56,073 bases of DNA from Erysipelotrichaceae bacterium. GTDB taxonomy: Bacteria; Bacillota_I; Bacilli_A; Erysipelotrichales; Erysipelotrichaceae. How positions within the stretch are numbered: the stretch's first letter is position 1; the number at the start of each line of letters is the position of its first letter. Below the pieces are notes generated by a model. The model saw nothing but the letters and a program-made list of their open reading frames with translations, did not search any database and was not told where the DNA came from. The position numbers and the translations under genes are program-made. The stretch is from NCBI GenBank assembly GCA_013334325.1, contig JAAXXT010000014.1, positions 1 to 56,073 on the forward strand, written 5' to 3'. Shown here piece by piece: positions 7,660-32,161 of this stretch.

Positions 7660-7692
7660 GTAAAGAAAAGACCCGTTAATTTACGGGTCTTT
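7660..7692 (-). terminator. Terminator of the GH3/HD-GYP operon
   Basis: Stem AAAGACCCG/CGGGTCTTT. Its 8-base loop contains the TAA stop of the HD-GYP gene. The minus strand continues CTTTTCTTT. Confidence 0.85.
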
Positions 7693-10240
7693 CTAAGAAA
7701 CTGTCGATGGTATAAATATTCGTACGAGTAGGTTCTACGATGAGCTTACCACTCGCAATCAATTCTACGAAGATTTCAGTCAATTCAGGATCGAACTGTG
7801 TCCCAGAATTACGCTTGATCTCATTGATGGCGTATTCTGTATCCATATTGATCTTATATTGACGATCTGAGGTGATCGCATCGAAGGCATCTGCCAAGGC
7901 AATACATCTTGCCCCAAACGGAATAGCTTCACCTGCGATCTTTCTAGGATAGCCTTTCCCATCCCATCGTTCATGATGACCGATGACACTAGGAATAACT
8001 TTAGAGAATGAAGGCAAGTATTTGATGATCGTAATCGAGAGATCCACATGTTTCTTCATGGTTTCATATTCTTCAGTGGTCAAGCGAGAAGTCTTCGTTA
8101 AGACATTCTCAGGAACACCGATCTTACCGATATCATGAAGTAAGGAAGCCAATCTTATGATCTCTATCTCAGAAGGTTTAGCGCCAGTAGCTTCAGCGAT
8201 GGCTGTTGCGTATTTAGCGACACGTTGAGAATGACCGAAAGTAATATGATCCTTAGCATCGATCGTTGCGGTCAAGGCATAGACTGTCGCCAATTGATTT
8301 TCATCTAAAGCGATGCCTTCTTTAGTATCTTCAGAGATCGTTGAATTGTAGAGGACCGTCTTATTACGTCCACCACGCTTCGCTTCAATCAAAGCCAATC
8401 CTGCGTTCTTTAGTAAGAGTTTATCATCATTGGCTTGGGTAGGATAGGTACATAATCCACAGCTAACTGTGAGAGATCTCGCAGATTCATCAGGGGCAGA
8501 AACAGAGGTCTGTTCAATGACGACTCTTATTCTTTCCATCAGATCATAAGCTTTCTTTGTATCTGTATTAGGAAGGATAACAGCGAAGATATCTCCTACA
8601 TAGCGACATACGATCCCATTATCGCCTACGATTTGTTTTACTTTAGAAGCGAGTTTGGTTAAGGCTGTATCCCCTGCATAGTGACCATAAAGGTCATTAT
8701 ATACATTAAACATATCGATACCAGTCAAAGCCAAGGAGACATTGTTTGTCTTTGATTTACTGGTAACTTCAATCAATTGATCCATAAAATAGCGATGATT
8801 ATAGGTATTGGTCAAGGCATCGATGGTGGCTTCTTCTCTAGCCTTTTCAAACAAGATAGCATTGGCGATCGCGATTGACGCTGTCATACAGATCATATTG
8901 ATTTGATCAGTATGAGGTATATCTCTGATCGAATGGGTATCCTTATGACACATCAGTAAGATCCCAATCAGTTTCCCATTGGATTTTAAAGGAAGCGCAG
9001 TCTCAAATAAGATCCCATTAAGGGCTCTACGATCTTGATCCCACATCGTCTTAAAGAAGGCATTGGTATCTAAAGCTTTTCCGTTGATGAGTTCATCATA
9101 TTGATTGAACCATAAGACAAATGGATGAGTAGGACTGATCTCAAAGGATACACTTTCAAGTTTACGACTAGAAGCATAGAAAGAATAATTGACACTTTCC
9201 GCATCTTTCAAGAATAGATAATTACGTGGATTACCACTCACATCCGCAACAGCTCCCATTAAGCTTTCACTGATCTTACTTAAGACAAGGTTATTGGCGA
9301 TCTGATGGGTAAAGCTACTGATGCGTTCTTCTCTTCCTTTTTCTTCTTTATAGAATAGGTTATCAACTAAGGAATAAATGACTTTAAACAAAGGTTGGAA
9401 TACCAACAACGAAACAAAGGTAACGATCAAGATAAACAAGTTATTATCTAGACCTGTATTTAAGGTTTCAAAGACAGAGATAAGCGCATTGACAGCGAAG
9501 ATACTACCAATCGTAATGGCTGTCAACAACATCGTAAAGATAACAGCTTTCGTAATAACGAACTTCAGTTCCAAGACACGATTACGATAGATCGCATACA
9601 TGATGAAGACGGAGGCAATACTACCCGCAAAGAAGTCCAAAGGCCATTTCCCGATGACAGGCGCTAAATTCGCCCCGATCCCGATAAAGATGATAAACAA
9701 GGCGATCATTATGTTTTTAAGACCACCCATATATCTAGACTTACGATATTCTTTTTGAGCCAAGAACAAGCACATCAACAACAAGGCAAAGATCAAGACA
9801 TACGAGACATAGGCACCTAAGCCTAAGGTATATTGAAGTTCGATGAATGGGGAATAAGGCACTGCGACCATCTGAGCAGAGATCGTTGTATAGCCTAAGA
9901 TATTGACGACTTGCATCAAGACTTCTAAAAAGCCCCAGAAGAACAAGGAAGTATAACGTTTCATATGAATAAACACTGTAAAGAAGATATAGCCTGTATA
10001 AGGGATAAGCATCAAAGCCGCAACCATCGTACGTTGCCAGAAGAGGGTCCCTGGAGTGATGTTCATCTTCATCATCAAAGTCGAGAAACTCCACATTGTC
10101 ATCGAAGCTACCATCAACATAAATGTCGCTATGGTTTTATCTTTTTTAGACAAGGCTAAAATAACGAAGATACCGAATGAGAGAATTAAAGATACAATTG
10201 GGATACCCCAATAGATGTAGATGTAGATTTGATCCATCAT
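7676..10240 (-). CDS. Membrane HD-GYP phosphodiesterase with degenerate GGDEF domain
   Basis: 854 aa. About 9 membrane segments (roughly 10-285) resemble the 7TM histidine-kinase-type sensor plus extra helices. A GAF-like region covers 305-465 and a GGDEF-fold domain 475-635. The catalytic signature reads VGDIF (548-552) instead of GGDEF/GGEEF, so cyclase activity is probably lost. The C-terminal HD-GYP domain (about 650-830) is intact, with HDIGKIG (H702, D703), HHERWDGKGYP (755-765) and ADAFDA. It therefore probably degrades c-di-GMP, with the dead GGDEF possibly binding GTP as a regulator. The start overlaps the GH3 stop as ATGA. It is the last gene of a three-gene operon. Confidence 0.93.
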   Translation of the reverse strand: MMDQIYIYIYWGIPIVSLILSFGIFVILALSKKDKTIATFMLMVASMTMWSFSTLMMKMNITPGTLFWQRTMVAALMLIPYTGYIFFTVFIHMKRYTSLFFWGFLEVLMQVVNILGYTTISAQMVAVPYSPFIELQYTLGLGAYVSYVLIFALLLMCLFLAQKEYRKSRYMGGLKNIMIALFIIFIGIGANLAPVIGKWPLDFFAGSIASVFIMYAIYRNRVLELKFVITKAVIFTMLLTAITIGSIFAVNALISVFETLNTGLDNNLFILIVTFVSLLVFQPLFKVIYSLVDNLFYKEEKGREERISSFTHQIANNLVLSKISESLMGAVADVSGNPRNYLFLKDAESVNYSFYASSRKLESVSFEISPTHPFVLWFNQYDELINGKALDTNAFFKTMWDQDRRALNGILFETALPLKSNGKLIGILLMCHKDTHSIRDIPHTDQINMICMTASIAIANAILFEKAREEATIDALTNTYNHRYFMDQLIEVTSKSKTNNVSLALTGIDMFNVYNDLYGHYAGDTALTKLASKVKQIVGDNGIVCRYVGDIFAVILPNTDTKKAYDLMERIRVVIEQTSVSAPDESARSLTVSCGLCTYPTQANDDKLLLKNAGLALIEAKRGGRNKTVLYNSTISEDTKEGIALDENQLATVYALTATIDAKDHITFGHSQRVAKYATAIAEATGAKPSEIEIIRLASLLHDIGKIGVPENVLTKTSRLTTEEYETMKKHVDLSITIIKYLPSFSKVIPSVIGHHERWDGKGYPRKIAGEAIPFGARCIALADAFDAITSDRQYKINMDTEYAINEIKRNSGTQFDPELTEIFVELIASGKLIVEPTRTNIYTIDSFLERPVN

Positions 10241-25203: not shown

Positions 25204-25232
25204 TTGACATTTAAAAATAGTGCTATAATAAT
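25204..25232 (+). promoter_or_regulatory. Promoter of the pilus-assembly operon
   Basis: TTGACA, 17 bases, AATAAT. An overlapping alternative is the extended -10 TGCTATAAT at 25221-25229. The predicted RNA starts near 25236-25240, just before the riboswitch aptamer. Confidence 0.7.
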
Positions 25233-25249
25233 CGTAGATATTTGATTAA

Positions 25250-25331
25250 ATTATTCTTGGTAAACCATCCGAAAGGGTGGGACACAAAGTTCGGCGTCTA
25301 AGGTTCATGTAACTATGATCGGCCAATTGCA
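25250..25331 (+). promoter_or_regulatory. c-di-GMP-I (GEMM-I) riboswitch aptamer
   Basis: The conserved GEMM-I core is clear. GGTAAACC leads into hairpin P2 (CCATCC, GAAA tetraloop, GGGTGG at 25265-25280), then GACACAAAG, then the P3 region (TTCGGCGTCTAAGG to TATGATCGGCC). P1 closes with TTGG (25257-25260) pairing CCAA (25323-25326). The layout matches the Vibrio Vc2 aptamer (GGCAAACC, GAAA tetraloop, GGGACGCAAAG). It lies between the promoter and the pilC gene, so it should couple c-di-GMP to pilus expression. Confidence 0.9.
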
Positions 25332-25336
25332 CTATT

Positions 25337-25434
25337 AGGTTTTATTTGATTCCAGAAAGGAAACCTGCGTAGACTTTAAATGATCACAAGTTTGGTGGGA
25401 CTTACATTAGTCTATGATTCTATCGCGAAGGTTT
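25337..25434 (+). promoter_or_regulatory. Riboswitch expression platform (antiterminator and competing hairpin)
   Basis: AAACCTGCG (25361-25369) can pair with CGC-GA-AGGTTT (25424-25434), forming nine base pairs with a 2-base bulge and blocking the 5' arm of the terminator. The same AAACCT can instead pair with AGGTTT at 25337-25342, just 3' of the aptamer, which frees the terminator. A stem TAGACT/AGTCTA lies between these elements. Which state c-di-GMP stabilises is not decided by the sequence. Confidence 0.6.
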
Positions 25435-25446
25435 TTCGCTTTTTTG
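25425..25446 (+). terminator. Riboswitch-controlled intrinsic terminator
   Basis: GCGAA, 5-base loop, TTCGC, then TTTTTT. The stem is short, which suits a regulated terminator. It lies about 175 bases before the pilC start. Confidence 0.75.
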
Positions 25447-25620
25447 TCTGAGTTAAGTTAGTTTAACTCTGAATCGAATAAGTTAGTAGCCCTATTAGTT
25501 TAAGAAGATCCACATCATCAAATTTTTTCGCAAAATCTTTTTAAATGAAAAGAAGAATAGTTGAGGTTTTATAGTTTTACAACGTATATATTCTGCTCAC
25601 AAGGGAAAGGAGCGATTCAT
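25447..25620 (+). other. Remaining 5' leader of the pilus operon
   Basis: No gene. A perfect hairpin GAGTTAA-N6-TTAACTC (25450-25469) follows directly after the terminator and may protect or structure the read-through mRNA. AAAGGAG at the end serves pilC. Confidence 0.5.
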
Positions 25621-26817
25621 ATGCCAAACAAATTCCGCTATACAGCTGTAGACAGTTCTGGAAACACCATCACTGATACTTTAAGTGCTGATTCTCCCGA
25701 ACATCTCATGGCTCAAATTCACGCTAAGAATCTGTTCTGTATGGGTTATGAGGAAATCGGTGTCAATACCGCTACCGCTGCGAAATTAAACACGAAGAGT
25801 TTGGTTATCTTTTGTCGACAATTAGGAACCATGCTAAATGCGGGTATTCCTATATCCCTTGCTTTACATTTGATCCAAGATAAAGTTGATAATCTTCGCG
25901 CTAAGAAAGTTTTCTCTCAACTTTATGAAGATGTTCAAAAGGGTAATTCATTATCCATTGCGATGCAACTTCAACCGGGGATGTTTCCTAATCTATTGGT
26001 CAATATGATTCTTGCTGGTGAAGCTGGTGGTACTTTAGATTCTGCCATGAATCGTATGGCTGATCATTTTGATAAAGAAAACAAACTACAGAATAAAATA
26101 AAACAAGCCCTTGTTTATCCAGTCATCTTGTCGGTTATATCTGTCTTGGTTGTTTTAGTCTTAGTAACCTTCGTTCTACCTACGATAACCAATATGTTTG
26201 ATGCTAAATTAATGCCACCTACCACGAAGTTCCTTATTGGTGTCAGTAGTTTCTTGATCCATCAATGGTATATTGTCTTGATTGGTTTGGTAGTATTGAT
26301 TGTTGGTATTAAGTTATTATTCAGTATGCCTGCATTCAAATATGAATATGATCGGATCCTACTTCATATGCCAATCATAGGAAAACTTAATCGAACAATC
26401 TATTCAGCTCGTTGCGCACGTACTTTTGCCTCACTTTACTTAAGTGGAGTTCAAGCACTTGATATGATTGAAATCACAGGAAAAGTACTGGGTAATAGTT
26501 TTCTAGTTAAGCGGTTTGATGAAGTCATCACTTCAGTAAGTCGAGGAGAATTCATCTCTAAAGCCATCGCTGAAACAAAATCGTTTGACCCTATGTTAAG
26601 TTCTATGCTCTATATCGGTGAAGAATCCGGTTCCTTAGGAGATATCCTATTAAAAACAGCAGACTATTTTGATGGGGAATCTGAAACAGCCCTACAACGT
26701 ATGATCGCTTTGATAGAACCACTGATGTTGGTCATCATGGGTGTCATCATTGCTTTCATCGTTATATCGATTATGCAACCGATCTTTACAATGTATAACA
26801 CACTAGGGAATTCATAA
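25621..26817 (+). CDS. pilC: Type IV pilus inner-membrane platform protein PilC
   Basis: 398 aa with two GspF/PilC domains and three membrane segments. Marks are FRYTAVDSSGN at the N-terminus, FCRQLGTMLNAGIPI, ILAGEAGGTLDSAM and its C-terminal counterpart YIGEESGSLGDIL, and IALIEPLMLVIMGVIIAFIVISI. It anchors the assembly ATPases to the pilus base. The start is ATG 25621 with AAAGGAG 8 bases upstream; a TTG at 25561 extends the frame but lacks a ribosome site and family similarity. It is the first gene behind the c-di-GMP riboswitch. Confidence 0.95.
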   Translation: MPNKFRYTAVDSSGNTITDTLSADSPEHLMAQIHAKNLFCMGYEEIGVNTATAAKLNTKSLVIFCRQLGTMLNAGIPISLALHLIQDKVDNLRAKKVFSQLYEDVQKGNSLSIAMQLQPGMFPNLLVNMILAGEAGGTLDSAMNRMADHFDKENKLQNKIKQALVYPVILSVISVLVVLVLVTFVLPTITNMFDAKLMPPTTKFLIGVSSFLIHQWYIVLIGLVVLIVGIKLLFSMPAFKYEYDRILLHMPIIGKLNRTIYSARCARTFASLYLSGVQALDMIEITGKVLGNSFLVKRFDEVITSVSRGEFISKAIAETKSFDPMLSSMLYIGEESGSLGDILLKTADYFDGESETALQRMIALIEPLMLVIMGVIIAFIVISIMQPIFTMYNTLGNS

Positions 26818-26835: not shown

Positions 26836-27735
26836 ATGCCACTATCTATTGAGATTCGTACGAGACAGCTTCAAGTAGTGCAAACCACGGTAACTAAGAA
26901 CCGAGTGCACTATAAAAACACATTTAGTGTTGATTTAGAAGAGGGGTGGGTCGATGCGAAGGGTATTGTAAATCAAATCGCTGTTGTCTTTGCTTTGAAC
27001 CAAGCTCTAGAAAGCAGAGGTATCAAAGAGAAGAAATGCACCTTATGTATCAACAACCATTCTGTTATTTATCGTGAACTCCTTATTCCAAAGGTTGAAG
27101 ATAAACGTATTCCATTTATTGTAAGAAGTGAAATGATTGCTTCTTTGGATTTAACAACAGACCATCTCGTAGATTTCATTATCCTTGAAGAAGTCACAGA
27201 TGGGCATAAGACCAACTTACGTGTGCTCGCAGTAGCGATCGCTCAAAAAGCCTTAGGAAGCTATGTAGATTTATGTATGAAGCTTGGGTTAAGACCTGAT
27301 GTAATTGACACTGCTACTAGTTCAGTCATAAAACTCGTTGAGAAATCTGATCTCACTAAAGCGGGTGAGCCTATTATCGTAGCTGATGTCGAAAAGGATG
27401 TTATGAGATTGTATCTTTTTGAACATAAGAAATACATCCTGATACGTAATACAAAGTTAAATGAGATTGAAGATGGCAAGAAAGCTGATTGGATCAGTGA
27501 CATCGAAGATAACATCAATAAGATGCTTCAATATCAATTCACAAGAGAATCTCATACAGGCGTGGAAAAGGTCTTCTTCTTTGGGAATCATCCTCTCATA
27601 AATGAAATTCAAGATTCAGTCAAAGATAATCTATCCGTTGAAACTTCCCTGTATCCAAAACCTGACTTCTTGTCTGGAGGAGAGGAGAGCTACTTACCAT
27701 ATTTGAATGCCATTGGAGCAGCGCTGAGGAAATAA
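26836..27735 (+). CDS. pilM: PilM-like cytoplasmic actin-fold pilus assembly protein
   Basis: 299 aa, soluble, with the FtsA/PilM-type ATPase fold. It starts with LSIEIRTRQLQVVQ and has LGLRPDVIDTATSSVIKL and a later strand IIVADVEKDVMRLYLF. PilM binds the N-terminal tail of PilN, and the next gene indeed begins with the PilN peptide INLLEHY. Sequence similarity to classical PilM is weak, so position and this partner motif carry part of the call. The ribosome site GAGGGAG lies before the ATG. Confidence 0.85.
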   Translation: MPLSIEIRTRQLQVVQTTVTKNRVHYKNTFSVDLEEGWVDAKGIVNQIAVVFALNQALESRGIKEKKCTLCINNHSVIYRELLIPKVEDKRIPFIVRSEMIASLDLTTDHLVDFIILEEVTDGHKTNLRVLAVAIAQKALGSYVDLCMKLGLRPDVIDTATSSVIKLVEKSDLTKAGEPIIVADVEKDVMRLYLFEHKKYILIRNTKLNEIEDGKKADWISDIEDNINKMLQYQFTRESHTGVEKVFFFGNHPLINEIQDSVKDNLSVETSLYPKPDFLSGGEESYLPYLNAIGAALRK

Positions 27736-27737
27736 AC

Positions 27738-28310
27738 ATGAAAAAGGAAAACATCAATCTTCTTGAACATTATCAAATTATAGAGAAAAATCGTAAAAAC
27801 CAAGGAACAAAACCCCTTAACTTTATCGCAATTTTACTTATTGCAATTCTACTTCTCTCTGCTTATTCACTTACCCTCTTCTTACAAGACTCAAGTTTAA
27901 AAGCCAGCAATAAAGATCTTCAAGATTATACCTCTAGTACTGAAATCCTAGGCAAAATCCAAGTCATATCAATTAAACAAAGACAATTGTCTGATTTAAC
28001 TGAGATATTGACCGAATTGAAATCATTGAATGCTGCTTTTGTTGCAATGCCAGTTTTAAGAACAGAGGTTCTCGATTCTATCAATGCATGTATTCCTCCT
28101 GATACAAAGATCTTAATGGTTGATTTTGATGGGCAATGGATATCAATTCAAACCACTTCATCTAATCTACTAAGACCTTCTGAATTCGCTAGAAATTTAA
28201 GAAATACTCAACTCTTTGAAGACATCGTTTATAACGGCTATACCACAGACACATCAGGAAAAACTGCTTATATTGGATCTGTGAAGATTGCCTTAAAGGT
28301 AGGAAACTAA
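27738..28310 (+). CDS. pilN: PilN-like pilus alignment protein
   Basis: 190 aa. The cytoplasmic tail carries INLLEHY (residues 6-12), the PilM-binding motif. One membrane segment follows at about 28-50, then a coiled coil (about 53-100) and a small C-terminal alpha/beta domain. It starts two bases after pilM. In type IV pilus machines PilN and PilO form the inner-membrane bridge of the alignment complex. Confidence 0.87.
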   Translation: MKKENINLLEHYQIIEKNRKNQGTKPLNFIAILLIAILLLSAYSLTLFLQDSSLKASNKDLQDYTSSTEILGKIQVISIKQRQLSDLTEILTELKSLNAAFVAMPVLRTEVLDSINACIPPDTKILMVDFDGQWISIQTTSSNLLRPSEFARNLRNTQLFEDIVYNGYTTDTSGKTAYIGSVKIALKVGN

Positions 28311-28311
28311 G

Positions 28312-28959
28312 ATGAAACTTTCAAACCGTGAAGTGAATTTACTTTATGCTTTATCTACTTTAGGTGTAATCGTAGCATTCTTGATGTTGGTCATCTTCCC
28401 TTTACAAAAATCGATTGATGCCCAACAAACACTAAATCTTACATTGAATGACCAAAAGACCTTAGTAGATGCACAGATACTAAATGGAGCTGGTTTAGAT
28501 GATAAATTGGTCAAAGCCTTAGAAAATGTAAACTTAGAACTCGCAAAAATCGAATCTCCGATCAATGCTGAAGAATTTGAATTAAGAATTCAACCATATC
28601 TGGTAACCAATGATATTCAAATCTTGTCATGGAATGCCAACGAACCAGTTGTTTCTAAACCTAACCTTCCTGTATTTCAGAAAACAAACTTGATCTTTAA
28701 ACTTCAAGAGTTACTTGATAGTTATAGTCAAATCAATACTGCTACTGGTAATGTTCCTTCTTCAGAAACAGAATTGGTAAAAACCACCATCATCTTAACT
28801 TTCAAGAGTCCTTACTTAGTCTATACAGGCTTGTTAGACACCATCGCAGGATTCAATTCAACTATTTATGTATCTTCTGCTAACCGCGAGAATTCCACTG
28901 GTACAGCAACCATCAACATCGACATCTATACGTTGACCAAACCTGAACCTCAACCTTAA
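28312..28959 (+). CDS. pilO: PilO-like pilus alignment protein
   Basis: 215 aa. A short cytoplasmic tail, one membrane segment (about 12-30), a coiled coil (about 33-80) and a C-terminal domain form the PilO layout. Sequence is poorly conserved, as is usual for PilO, so the call rests on layout and position between pilN and pilB. The 89 bases to the next gene hold no terminator. Confidence 0.8.
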   Translation: MKLSNREVNLLYALSTLGVIVAFLMLVIFPLQKSIDAQQTLNLTLNDQKTLVDAQILNGAGLDDKLVKALENVNLELAKIESPINAEEFELRIQPYLVTNDIQILSWNANEPVVSKPNLPVFQKTNLIFKLQELLDSYSQINTATGNVPSSETELVKTTIILTFKSPYLVYTGLLDTIAGFNSTIYVSSANRENSTGTATINIDIYTLTKPEPQP

Positions 28960-29048: not shown

Positions 29049-30737
29049 ATGAAATCATTACCCTTAGGTCAAATCTTACTCGAAGAAAAGGTAATCAACG
29101 AACAAGAGCTTAATCAAGCTTTGGAACAACAAAAAGTTTCAAAGAAACGATTAGGAGCCGTGATTATCGAAATGGGTATCGTCGAAGAAAAAGACATTAT
29201 GAAAGCCTTAGCTAGGCGTCTAAAAGTCGACTTCCTAGAAACCCCTCTTTTCTCAATCGATCTAGAAACCGTTAAGCTCATCCCCGAGCAATTCGCTAGA
29301 AAATATCGAATCGTTCCTTTAAACATCAGAGAAGGACACTTAAACATCGTCACCAGTGATCCTCTAGACTTTGCTTGTCTAGAAGACATCAGTATGATCA
29401 CTTCAATGGAAGTTCATACTATTCTCTCAACTGAATCAGAAATCGATAAAGCCATCGACCGTGTCTATACACGTAGAAACGCTGATGAGATCATTGAAGA
29501 CATCCGTTCTGAATATGGTGACATCAATATCGAAATAAATCCTGAACAGGAAGAACAAGCTGCCATCGTCGAACGTGTCGACTCAGCGCCTATCGTTAAA
29601 CTGGTTAATTCCCTAGTTCAAGAAGCCTATCAAGAAAACGCTTCTGATATCCACATCGAACCAGAAGAAACACGCACTAGAGTACGCTTTAGAATAGATG
29701 GTGACTTGGTTGAACACTCAACTTTCTCTAAAGACATTCACGGTCTATTGACCACTCGTATTAAGATTATCTCTGGGATGAATATCGCTGAAAAACGTGT
29801 ACCTCAAGATGGTAGTTTCAACATCAGAACAGAATATATCCATGTTGATATGCGTGTATCTAGTTTACCTACTCCATTTGGAGAAAAGATCGTTATGCGT
29901 CTATTGGGAGCCAATAGAGCCATCGACTATGATATGAAAGCCTTAGGACTTTCTGCCCATACTTTAGGTCTTCTTGAGAAATCACTTCATATTCCTAATG
30001 GAATCATCTTAGTAACTGGTCCTACTGGATCAGGTAAAACAACCACCTTGTATTCCATGTTAAGTAGCATTACTAAACCTACCATCAATATCGTAACCGT
30101 AGAAGATCCTATTGAACGTCGTTTCGATAATATCACTCAAGTTCAAGTCAATCCTAGAGCAGGACTTACCTTCGCTTCCGGACTAAGATCCATCCTTCGT
30201 CAAGATCCAGATGTCATCATGGTCGGGGAAATAAGAGATGCTGAAACCGCAGAAATCGCGATAAGAGCCGCCATTACTGGTCACTTGGTCTTATCCACCA
30301 TCCATACCAATGATGCCTTATCAACCATAGTAAGACTAACTGATATGGGAGTCGAACCTTATTTGGTAGCCTCATCAGTCAAGTGCGTTGTTTCTCAACG
30401 GTTAGTCAAGAAAATCTGTCCTCATTGCAAAGCTAAAGCAGAAGTAAGTGTTGAACAAGGACGCCTTTTACAAACTAAGGTCAATCAAAGTTATGTAGGC
30501 AAAGGATGTCAACAATGTAAGTTTACAGGCTATTTAGGACGTCAACCAGTTCATGAAGTTCTTGTTGTTGATGCTACTTTCGAAGAATTAATTACTCGCA
30601 ATGCATCTATGGAAGAATTAAGAGCTCATGCTAAATCTAGAAGTATGAGAATGCTAAAAGATGAAATTACCGACCTTATTGAACAAGGGGTCACAACCAT
30701 TGAAGAAGGTCTAAGAATCTTGTATTCTGTCGATTAA
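29049..30737 (+). CDS. pilB: Pilus extension ATPase PilB (GspE family)
   Basis: 562 aa. An MshEN-type N-terminal domain covers about 1-140, a linker about 145-175 and the GspE ATPase core the rest. Walker A is GPTGSGKTT at 324-332, the Asp box ITVEDPIE-like segment is VTVEDPIERRF (349-359) and Walker B lies in DPDVIMVGEIRD. The C1 zinc site is C457/C460 and C487/C490. MshEN domains can bind c-di-GMP, which would add a second c-di-GMP input besides the riboswitch (inference). AAAGGAG precedes the ATG. Confidence 0.96.
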   Translation: MKSLPLGQILLEEKVINEQELNQALEQQKVSKKRLGAVIIEMGIVEEKDIMKALARRLKVDFLETPLFSIDLETVKLIPEQFARKYRIVPLNIREGHLNIVTSDPLDFACLEDISMITSMEVHTILSTESEIDKAIDRVYTRRNADEIIEDIRSEYGDINIEINPEQEEQAAIVERVDSAPIVKLVNSLVQEAYQENASDIHIEPEETRTRVRFRIDGDLVEHSTFSKDIHGLLTTRIKIISGMNIAEKRVPQDGSFNIRTEYIHVDMRVSSLPTPFGEKIVMRLLGANRAIDYDMKALGLSAHTLGLLEKSLHIPNGIILVTGPTGSGKTTTLYSMLSSITKPTINIVTVEDPIERRFDNITQVQVNPRAGLTFASGLRSILRQDPDVIMVGEIRDAETAEIAIRAAITGHLVLSTIHTNDALSTIVRLTDMGVEPYLVASSVKCVVSQRLVKKICPHCKAKAEVSVEQGRLLQTKVNQSYVGKGCQQCKFTGYLGRQPVHEVLVVDATFEELITRNASMEELRAHAKSRSMRMLKDEITDLIEQGVTTIEEGLRILYSVD

Positions 30738-30746
30738 GGAATGGAT

Positions 30747-31802
30747 ATGCTACAAGAAATCCTTAAAAAGGCCCAAGACGAACAATGTTCAGACATTCAT
30801 ATCTCAGGAAACGAGAAAGTTCTGTTTAGAAAAGATGGCCGTTTACTTTCTTATTCTGATGATATAATGAGTTCAGAAGATACCTTATCATTGGTCAACC
30901 AGTTGATCGACACCAAACACAGTGAACTATACACTTTGGGTGGAGATGTCGATGCAGCTTATACCGATGAGTTCAATAATCGATACAGACTTAACGTCTA
31001 CCGTCAACGCGGTGTACCCGCGATTGCGATCCGTTTATTAAGAAACACTATTCCAACTCTTAAAGAGTTGAAAATGCCAGATGTTCTTGGTAAACTGGCA
31101 ATGCTTCCTAGAGGACTAGTCTTAGTAACAGGTCCTACTGGAAGTGGTAAGTCCACCACCTTAGCCGCTATGATTGATCATATCAATCGTAATAGATCCG
31201 TTCATATTCTGACGCTAGAGGATCCCATCGAATACATCCACACCGCAAACAAAGGGATGATTCATCAACGTGAGATCCATACTGATGCAAACGATTTTGC
31301 TTCTGCATTACGTTCTGCGCTTAGAGAAGACCCGGATGTGATCTTGGTAGGAGAAATGCGTGATCATGAAACGATCGCCTTAGCTCTTACTGCCGCGGAA
31401 ACCGGGCACCTCGTATTGTCTACCCTCCACACTACAGGGGCAGCAAATACGATTGATCGTATCATAGACGTATTCCCACCCCACCAACAAGGTCAAATCA
31501 GAACTCAGTTGGCATCCTCACTTCAGGGTGTCATCTCACAGGATCTGTTGCCTCTTGAAGGTGGCCTCGGAAGAATCGCAGCTCATGAAATCTTATTGAT
31601 GACAGACGCCGTTGCGAATCTTATACGAGAAAACAAAATCGTTCAGATCAACTCTGCGATTCAAACTGGCATGAAGTTGGGCATGTGCACCCTGGACGGA
31701 TCCTTGGTTAACTTGATCCGAAAAAACCTGATTTCTCTGGATACCGCTATGGAGAATACTTCAAATCCTGAGGCTTTGAAACGATTACTCCAAAACTTTT
31801 AG
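30747..31802 (+). CDS. pilT: Pilus retraction ATPase PilT
   Basis: 351 aa. Marks are CSDIHISG, Walker A GPTGSGKST, LEDPIEYIH, DPDVILVGEMRD, HLVLSTLHTTGAANTIDRIIDVFPP and the PilT-specific LIRENKIVQINSAIQTG. I start at ATG 30747, which has AAGGA six bases upstream; ATG 30741 touches the ribosome site. PilT powers retraction, so these pili should be dynamic, supporting twitching, retractile adhesion or DNA uptake. Confidence 0.95.
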   Translation: MLQEILKKAQDEQCSDIHISGNEKVLFRKDGRLLSYSDDIMSSEDTLSLVNQLIDTKHSELYTLGGDVDAAYTDEFNNRYRLNVYRQRGVPAIAIRLLRNTIPTLKELKMPDVLGKLAMLPRGLVLVTGPTGSGKSTTLAAMIDHINRNRSVHILTLEDPIEYIHTANKGMIHQREIHTDANDFASALRSALREDPDVILVGEMRDHETIALALTAAETGHLVLSTLHTTGAANTIDRIIDVFPPHQQGQIRTQLASSLQGVISQDLLPLEGGLGRIAAHEILLMTDAVANLIRENKIVQINSAIQTGMKLGMCTLDGSLVNLIRKNLISLDTAMENTSNPEALKRLLQNF

Positions 31803-31837: not shown

Positions 31838-32161
31838 ATGAAGAAATTAAACAAAAAAGGCTTTACACTTATTGAATTGATCGTTGTTATCGCGATCTTG
31901 GCCATCTTGGCTGCTATCTTGATTCCTGCTGTTACTGGTTATATTGCAAAGGCTCAAGACGCTGCCAATAAAGCAAATTGTCGTGCTGTTTATGCTGAAG
32001 TTTCATTGCAAGTTTTACTTGATCAAGCTTTAACATACGAAACAGGTGATGCTGTTGGTAAAGTAACATTCACTATTGACGCTGATGAAGATGCAAATAT
32101 TATTACAAACTTCTCTTGTGCAATGACCGGCGGGGTTGATGCAGTACTCGATCTGAAGTAA
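31838..32161 (+). CDS. pilA: Major type IV pilin
   Basis: 107 aa. A textbook class-III prepilin: KKGFTLIELIVVIAILAILAAILIPA, with cleavage after G8, F9 as the N-methylated residue and E13 at +5. The mature protein is about 99 residues, short for a pilin. It has two cysteines, C48 and C94, that could close a disulfide loop. It is last in the operon, behind AAAAGGAG and before a strong terminator, consistent with the main shaft subunit. No prepilin peptidase gene lies in the window. Confidence 0.92.
   Translation: MKKLNKKGFTLIELIVVIAILAILAAILIPAVTGYIAKAQDAANKANCRAVYAEVSLQVLLDQALTYETGDAVGKVTFTIDADEDANIITNFSCAMTGGVDAVLDLK

Follow-up and report, generated by a model that had tools for sequence, protein, structure and literature searches.

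The leader of a type IV pilus (pil) operon in an Erysipelotrichaceae bacterium raises the question of whether the complementary segments behind its c-di-GMP riboswitch aptamer make up a working transcription-termination switch or have another origin. The window, meaning the whole stretch of 56,073 nucleotides that was analysed (contig JAAXXT010000014.1 of assembly GCA_013334325.1, genome G000 below), had been given a sequence-only reading in which a c-di-GMP-I aptamer was followed by a complete three-way terminator switch. The features of the locus are collected in Table 1.

The first part of this reading, a c-di-GMP-I aptamer ahead of a type IV pilus operon, was borne out by Rfam and by the Pfam matches of the pil genes. 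The match to RF01051 (c-di-GMP-I) scored 63 bits, the gathering score being 35 (E-value of 5.1e-10), spans all 87 positions of the model (1–87) and is the sole Rfam match in the whole window. Thirteen of 13 P3 pairs are present in all three orthologous leaders (those of the window and of genomes G025 and G146, introduced below), with one double change from G-C to A-T. P2 has 6/6 pairs in the window and G146 and 4/6 in G025, where the P2 loop and stem are offset by one base in the leader alignment. The equivalents of Vc2 G20 and C92, which we take to be ligand contacts, are kept at 25259 and 25330. On every sequence feature that can be tested, the window leader belongs to the c-di-GMP-I family. 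Its promoter is overlapped by an extended -10 element, TGCTATAAT (25221–25229), which is kept or nearly kept in G025 and G146, and a promoter scan identified no further promoter-like site on the + strand between 25233 and pilC. Genome G000 was found to carry six c-di-GMP-I aptamers, along with 21 GGDEF and 3 EAL domain matches. Within the window, a 7TM-GGDEF-HD_5 (HD-GYP-type) protein encoded at 7676–10240 on the minus strand is likely a c-di-GMP turnover enzyme.

Behind the leader, the genes are arranged in the order pilC, pilM, pilN, pilO-like, pilB, pilT and a prepilin gene. The protein in the pilO position (215 aa) had no match in Pfam or NCBIfam. The MshEN domain carried by PilB, the assembly ATPase, is a known c-di-GMP receptor domain, and c-di-GMP may act on the pilus via both the RNA and PilB.

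Table 1. Features of the pil leader and operon, in window coordinates.
Feature	Position	Strand	Remarks
Promoter TTGACA-17-AATAAT	25204..25232	+	11/12 matches; best site of the region
c-di-GMP-I riboswitch aptamer	25249..25334	+	RF01051, 63 bits; P3 kept in orthologous leaders
H1, weak hairpin of aptamer 3' arm GGCCAAT and ATTAGGTT, then TTATTTG	25321..25341	+	Counterpart of the sister terminators
H2 hairpin AGGTTTT...AAACCT, claimed anti-antiterminator	25332..25372	+	-10.5 kcal/mol
Claimed antiterminator pairing	25361..25434	+	25361–25369 with 25424–25434, 9/9
Decayed 5' end of first minor-prepilin gene	25380..25451	+	23-codon open frame MITSLVGLTLVYDSIAKVFRFFV
Terminator-like hairpin T2, GCGAA-GGTTT-TTCGC-TTTTTTG	25425..25446	+	Within the pseudogene remnant
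Non-coding spacer	25452..25590	+	About 2.4 kb of minor-pilin genes at the equivalent place in relatives
pilC ribosome-binding region	25591..25620	+	Conserved at the PilX-pilC junction of relatives
pilC	25621..26817	+	Pfam T2SSF, 7.8e-56
pilM	26836..27735	+	Pfam PilM_2, 2.4e-13
pilN	27738..28310	+	Pfam PilN, 1.9e-4, 21.9 bits, just below the cut-off of 22.8
pilO-like gene	28312..28959	+	Named by position only
pilB	29049..30737	+	Pfam T2SSE, 4.1e-131; MshEN, 4.2e-19
pilT	30741..31802	+	Pfam T2SSE, 8.3e-50
pilA-like prepilin	31838..32161	+	Pfam N_methyl, 4.4e-10

The self-complementary segments described downstream of the aptamer are likewise present. The claimed antiterminator strand, AAACCTGCG (25361–25369), can form 9/9 pairs with 25424–25434 (duplex of -10.5 kcal/mol), and the terminator stem (25425–25429 with 25435–25439) runs into TTTTTTG, with six T. 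This stem, T2, was calculated at -3.9 kcal/mol, or -5.3 including its flank. For AGGTTT (25337–25342) as anti-antiterminator, the six of six standard pairs with AAACCT (25361–25366) stand; what had been missed is its overlap with a 3' arm that pairs with the aptamer's own 3' strand. AGGTTT serves as the 3' arm of a relic hairpin, H1 (GGCCAATTGCACTATTAGGTTTTATTTG), and opens its T tract. H1 has -1.1 to -2.2 kcal/mol, was matched by 6/20 and 126/200 shuffles and has a broken U tract. A stable hairpin on the aptamer 3' arm followed by a U tract, as in an ON platform, was not found in the window leader. As to chance, a terminator-like site arose in 37 of 1000 dinucleotide shuffles of 25380–25460 and is present in 49 of 1384 81-base tiles of the window. 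A terminator with an equally good upstream pairing arose in 3/1000 of the same shuffles, a post hoc figure as the feature was chosen after viewing.

The origin of these segments is best approached through the relatives. A PilC search of eight genomes of the genus gave matches in 8/8. The closest PilC proteins, at 79 and 80% identity to that of the window, belong to G025 and G146, and both genomes share the window's leader (promoter -10 region, aptamer and purine-rich stretch), with aptamers of 60.6 and 67.8 bits, respectively. The order in both is leader, prepilin gene (MIKTKLG(F/M)TFVEVI...), second prepilin gene, PilX-like gene of 518–536 codons, and pilC. The prepilin motif of the first two genes is recognised by NCBIfam and Pfam, and the third gene has solely a DUF7305 match below the cut-off in these databases. 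Searches with the PilX-like and first prepilin proteins placed both kinds of gene ahead of the pilC orthologue in 7/7 other genomes of the genus. In the PilC tree, G000 adjoins G025 and G146 with a support of 0.78, and the next, more distant branch (locus L070) has a PilX-like gene immediately before pilC. This placement, together with the L070 gene, makes gene loss the economical reading, and since prepilin and PilX-like genes lie upstream of pilC in all seven other genomes, three genes were most likely lost from the pil operon in the window lineage.

Genome G000 holds no orthologous copy of the prepilin or PilX-like genes; the sole matches, at 25–32% identity, are on another contig (C33) in a second pilus cluster. 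Relocation of the lost genes within G000 was therefore rejected, these matches being merely paralogues. The second type IV pilus cluster (C33, 19935–21104 and flanks, locus L066) is equipped with prepilins and a PilX-like gene of its own, lacks a riboswitch match and may be a source of minor pilins for the first pilus system. A further sign of decay in pilus clusters was observed in G077 (contig C2, 6155–7350), where a relative of pilC is split into two frames and has an internal TGA. Similarity of the spacer 25452–25590 to the lost genes was not detected (161–290 of 300 shuffles scored as well), and the idea that the second prepilin gene or the PilX-like gene had left traces there was rejected. 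Beyond the spacer, 25560–25625 aligns with the PilX-pilC junction of the relatives with scores of 56 and 58, equalled by 0/300 shuffles.

The riboswitch leader is present at the pilC locus in three of the eight genomes. The pilC regions of G072, G145, G139 and G122 have no Rfam match, and the aptamers of G099 sit on different contigs from its pilC genes. A comparison by contig revealed no other genomes with an aptamer just before pilC besides G025 and G146, a count to be taken as a lower bound as the aptamer survey covered 145 genomes and the pilC survey 272, the two sets being different.

At the place where the relatives have the first prepilin gene, the window retains a recognisable trace of it. 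The alignment of the window with that gene begins at the ATG at 25380, is ungapped over its first 53 bases and continues beyond a gap of two bases. Identity is 42/69 bases to each relative, compared with 57/71 between G025 and G146, and for neither relative did any of 2000 dinucleotide shuffles score as high in local alignment (45 and 40). The prepilin motif has become GLTLVY in place of GFTFVE or GMTFVE and the frame closes after 23 codons, so that an intact G-(F/M)-T-F-V-E motif in an open frame is missing from the remnant. On these sequence grounds, 25380–25451 is classed as a pseudogene and not a gene. The T2 stem and its T run coincide with the codons Ala-Met-Ala-Ile-Phe-Ala-Ile-Leu. The corresponding prepilin start in G025 and G146 has no terminator-like site by the scan rule and folds at -3.0 and -2.3 kcal/mol. 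When drift was simulated from these two starts, a terminator-like site arose in 19–157 of 1000 runs, depending on start and rate, and a terminator with a matching antiterminator in 0–4 of 1000. The apparent terminator represents decayed codons of the lost prepilin gene. The preferred reading, of a stranded leader, is given a probability of roughly 0.6 and holds that a real c-di-GMP-I leader has lost its first three targets and that the terminator is prepilin debris.

Such a gap in gene content might also come from an assembly fault, as G000 is in 51 contigs and is represented by one assembly only. The junction is gradual, with 61% identity, a 2-base gap and 139 bases of unrelated spacer, and a chimeric join would not produce a drifted pilin start followed by an unrelated spacer. 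As the missing genes also have no orthologous copy elsewhere in G000, a fault of this kind is regarded as scarcely credible.

The relatives were also used to examine the claimed pairings, since the sequence-only reading had looked to their covariation. This test fails. In the alignment of the three leaders, the H2 columns keep 0/6 and 2/6 pairs in the two relatives and the antiterminator columns 3/9 and 7/9 scattered pairs, so that neither claimed pairing covaries in G025 or G146, whose leader is the same. The terminator stem keeps 4/5 and 3/5 pairs, and the antiterminator duplex falls from -10.5 kcal/mol in the window to -3.1 and -2.1. The three-way switch as a conserved device was rejected on these duplex energies and pair counts. 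The claim of a dedicated, complete switch is not supported either, the pairings being unconserved and the relatives having prepilin coding sequence without a terminator-like site in this region. Column-wise covariation of H2 was rejected as well; in G146 the same 3' arm is paired with a 5' arm shifted by 3–4 bases. Both relatives form some hairpin over the H2 3' arm with shifted 5' arms, which suggests that an H2-like hairpin may be old without being conserved by column.

A possible connection of H2 with translation was considered, as its 3' arm contains the purine-rich AAAGGAAA that precedes the prepilin start in the relatives. By hiding this stretch, in the window as in G146, H2 would set the translation of the first prepilin in the relatives and of the 23-codon remnant frame in G000, and a ribosome on the remnant frame, which stays open through the terminator (25380–25451), would melt the overlapping hairpin. 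The distance from the purine stretch to the ATG, about 16–21 bases, is long for a normal ribosome-binding site, and the H2 5' arm is not conserved by column; translational control is considered very improbable.

Folding predictions bear on whether the window's pairings could work as claimed. When the aptamer was not forced to form, the energy model gave 0.89 for the terminator, 0.89 for H2 and 0.068 for the antiterminator. With the aptamer forced, a mere stand-in for the ligand, the values were 0.97, 0.98 and 0.006, respectively. On these values the ligand would have little effect, and that toward OFF if in any direction; the model disregards tertiary contacts, pausing and true co-transcriptional kinetics. 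For the three-way switch to work, the remnant would have been recruited as a new platform after pilin loss. Without ligand, the aptamer 3' arm would pair with 25334–25341, H2 would be blocked and 25361–25369 would pair with the terminator 5' arm, allowing read-through; with c-di-GMP, P3 would be locked and H2 and the terminator would form (OFF). Every pairing is present in the window, the joint chance is about 3 in 1000 (post hoc), the run of six T and the gap of two bases give a sharper hairpin than the coding sequence of the relatives, and pilC has no other promoter-like site before it. Against this, the only link between aptamer and H2 is H1, which at -2.2 kcal/mol makes up <7% of the ensemble at all lengths tested; H2 and T2 dominate both states in the energy model, and the relatives give no support. 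A working switch of this design is therefore judged unlikely.

Some observations count against the preferred reading of a stranded leader. The T2 region (25420–25446) is more stable than 192/200 shuffles and H2 (about 25331–25373) more stable than 196/200, and the aptamer is well kept, which suggests that the leader retains a use. The joint rarity of terminator and antiterminator could reflect selection. One form of this would be exaptation, in which selection turned the opening codons of this prepilin pseudogene into a terminator and antiterminator, restoring c-di-GMP control of the leftover operon. This is retained as a distinctly unlikely alternative in view of how rarely the two elements arose together by chance and of the sharpened hairpin. 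The window species is represented here by a single genome.

The platforms of sister riboswitches were surveyed in 68 copies (67 listed aptamers and that of G146), scoring hairpins that start within the final 28 aptamer bases and run into a T tract. A terminator overlapping the aptamer at -10 kcal/mol or better was present in 23/68 copies and at -6 or better in 31/68, compared with 6 and 15%, respectively, of 1360 shuffles. As such a terminator shares the aptamer 3' arm, ligand binding and termination are exclusive, which makes an ON switch. Three further copies in G000 (contig C20, locus L063: 4574–4663, 4728–4818 and 8403–8490), a tandem pair and a third aptamer, precede two cadherin/VCBS-like surface proteins of 1121–1160 aa, a label given from reading the sequence. 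With aptamer-overlapping terminators of -16.4, -8.6 and -17.3 kcal/mol, each is predicted to be an ON switch. Double and triple tandem aptamers were also observed in loci L016, L017, L019 and L033 (G117, G036, G079 and G062), where outer GAACA/TGTTC flanks close each aptamer straight into the T tract; GAACAG recurs downstream in some of them, a different, P1-based platform.

The pilus leader has the sister layout in relic form, as H1. It is conceivable that H1 is the true terminator and that c-di-GMP, by occupying the aptamer 3' arm, would prevent it and turn pilC ON. The frequency of strong overlapping terminators among the 68 copies and the three C20 energies favour this, and the two relatives can each be drawn with an H1 hairpin. 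However, the low energy of H1, its performance against shuffles and its broken U tract speak against it; on the same energies, H1 as a strong terminator in G000 was rejected, and H1 as the true terminator is regarded as improbable.

Under the reading of a stranded leader, the following course may be envisaged. The leader precedes a minor-pilin/pilC-M-N-O-B-T operon in this small clade, and the start codons of the prepilin gene already had a partly palindromic, T-rich character before they decayed. With the loss in G000 of the three first target genes, the leader would now feed pilC directly. It would still head the pil operon and presumably still bind c-di-GMP, which would lock the P3 arm and block the weak H1 but leave H2. 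The remnant hairpin would be at most a weak or modest attenuator, largely independent of ligand, and the effect of c-di-GMP on the operon through the leader would be weak and, if anything, toward OFF. More of the action of c-di-GMP might perhaps pass through the MshEN domain of PilB.

Several described systems offer comparisons. As in the RF01051 family generally, the aptamer is complete here; the window platform differs in that the strong overlapping terminator of the sisters is absent and the original target is gone. In Geobacter metallireducens, PMC9262584 describes a GEMM-I-type riboswitch (pilM) ahead of a polycistronic pilus locus, in which aptamer and terminator are mutually exclusive (ON). 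The window resembles it in having a GEMM-I-type aptamer before a pilus locus, and the exclusive design is that of the 23 strong sister copies; unlike the pilM riboswitch, which is described as sensing cGAMP, the window's equivalent hairpin is weak and its operon begins with pilC (PMC9262584). In the Cd1 riboswitch of the Clostridioides difficile flagellar operon, as described in the same source, aptamer and terminator coexist and compete with an antiterminator (OFF). This is the logic of the claimed three-way scheme; the window differs in that a weak hairpin connects its aptamer with the antiterminator and in that its terminator is a pseudogene remnant. The Bc1 riboswitch of Bacillus thuringiensis has a long leader with two terminator-like hairpins, a dual terminator conserved in its group; according to PMC11218506, ligand binds, the downstream terminator stays folded and expression hardly responds. 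The window shares the long leader and the two terminator-like hairpins, its second hairpin being found in one genome only, and the mostly ligand-independent stop proposed for its remnant hairpin would be comparable.

The C. difficile precedent cited in the sequence-only reading holds in part. A c-di-GMP riboswitch does control type IV pili there, as it is proposed to do here, but pilA1 is described as being under the class II riboswitch Cdi-2-4 and not a class I copy (PMC6200980). The class I copies are described in that source as mostly OFF switches, five of them (Cdi-1-4, -5, -6, -7 and -10) being without a downstream coding sequence; the stranded window leader, unlike these, still runs into an operon. 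Judging by titles and the beginnings of abstracts, none of the papers listed in literature searches dealt with a riboswitch platform built from a pseudogene, and none of those listed used the name Erysipelotrichia.

The aptamer of this leader is ordinary; the real finding lies in the loss of its target genes and in the descent of the apparent terminator from a pseudogene. It is a case of a riboswitch keeping its aptamer after losing its first target genes, and it illustrates how, when complementary segments are read from a single sequence, a pseudogene can be taken for a designed switch. With three leaders available, two with the ancestral genes and one without, the fate of a stranded leader becomes testable, be it decay, use for the next gene or a platform evolved anew from coding debris. 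If exaptation is true, the riboswitch would have gained its expression platform from the remains of its own target.
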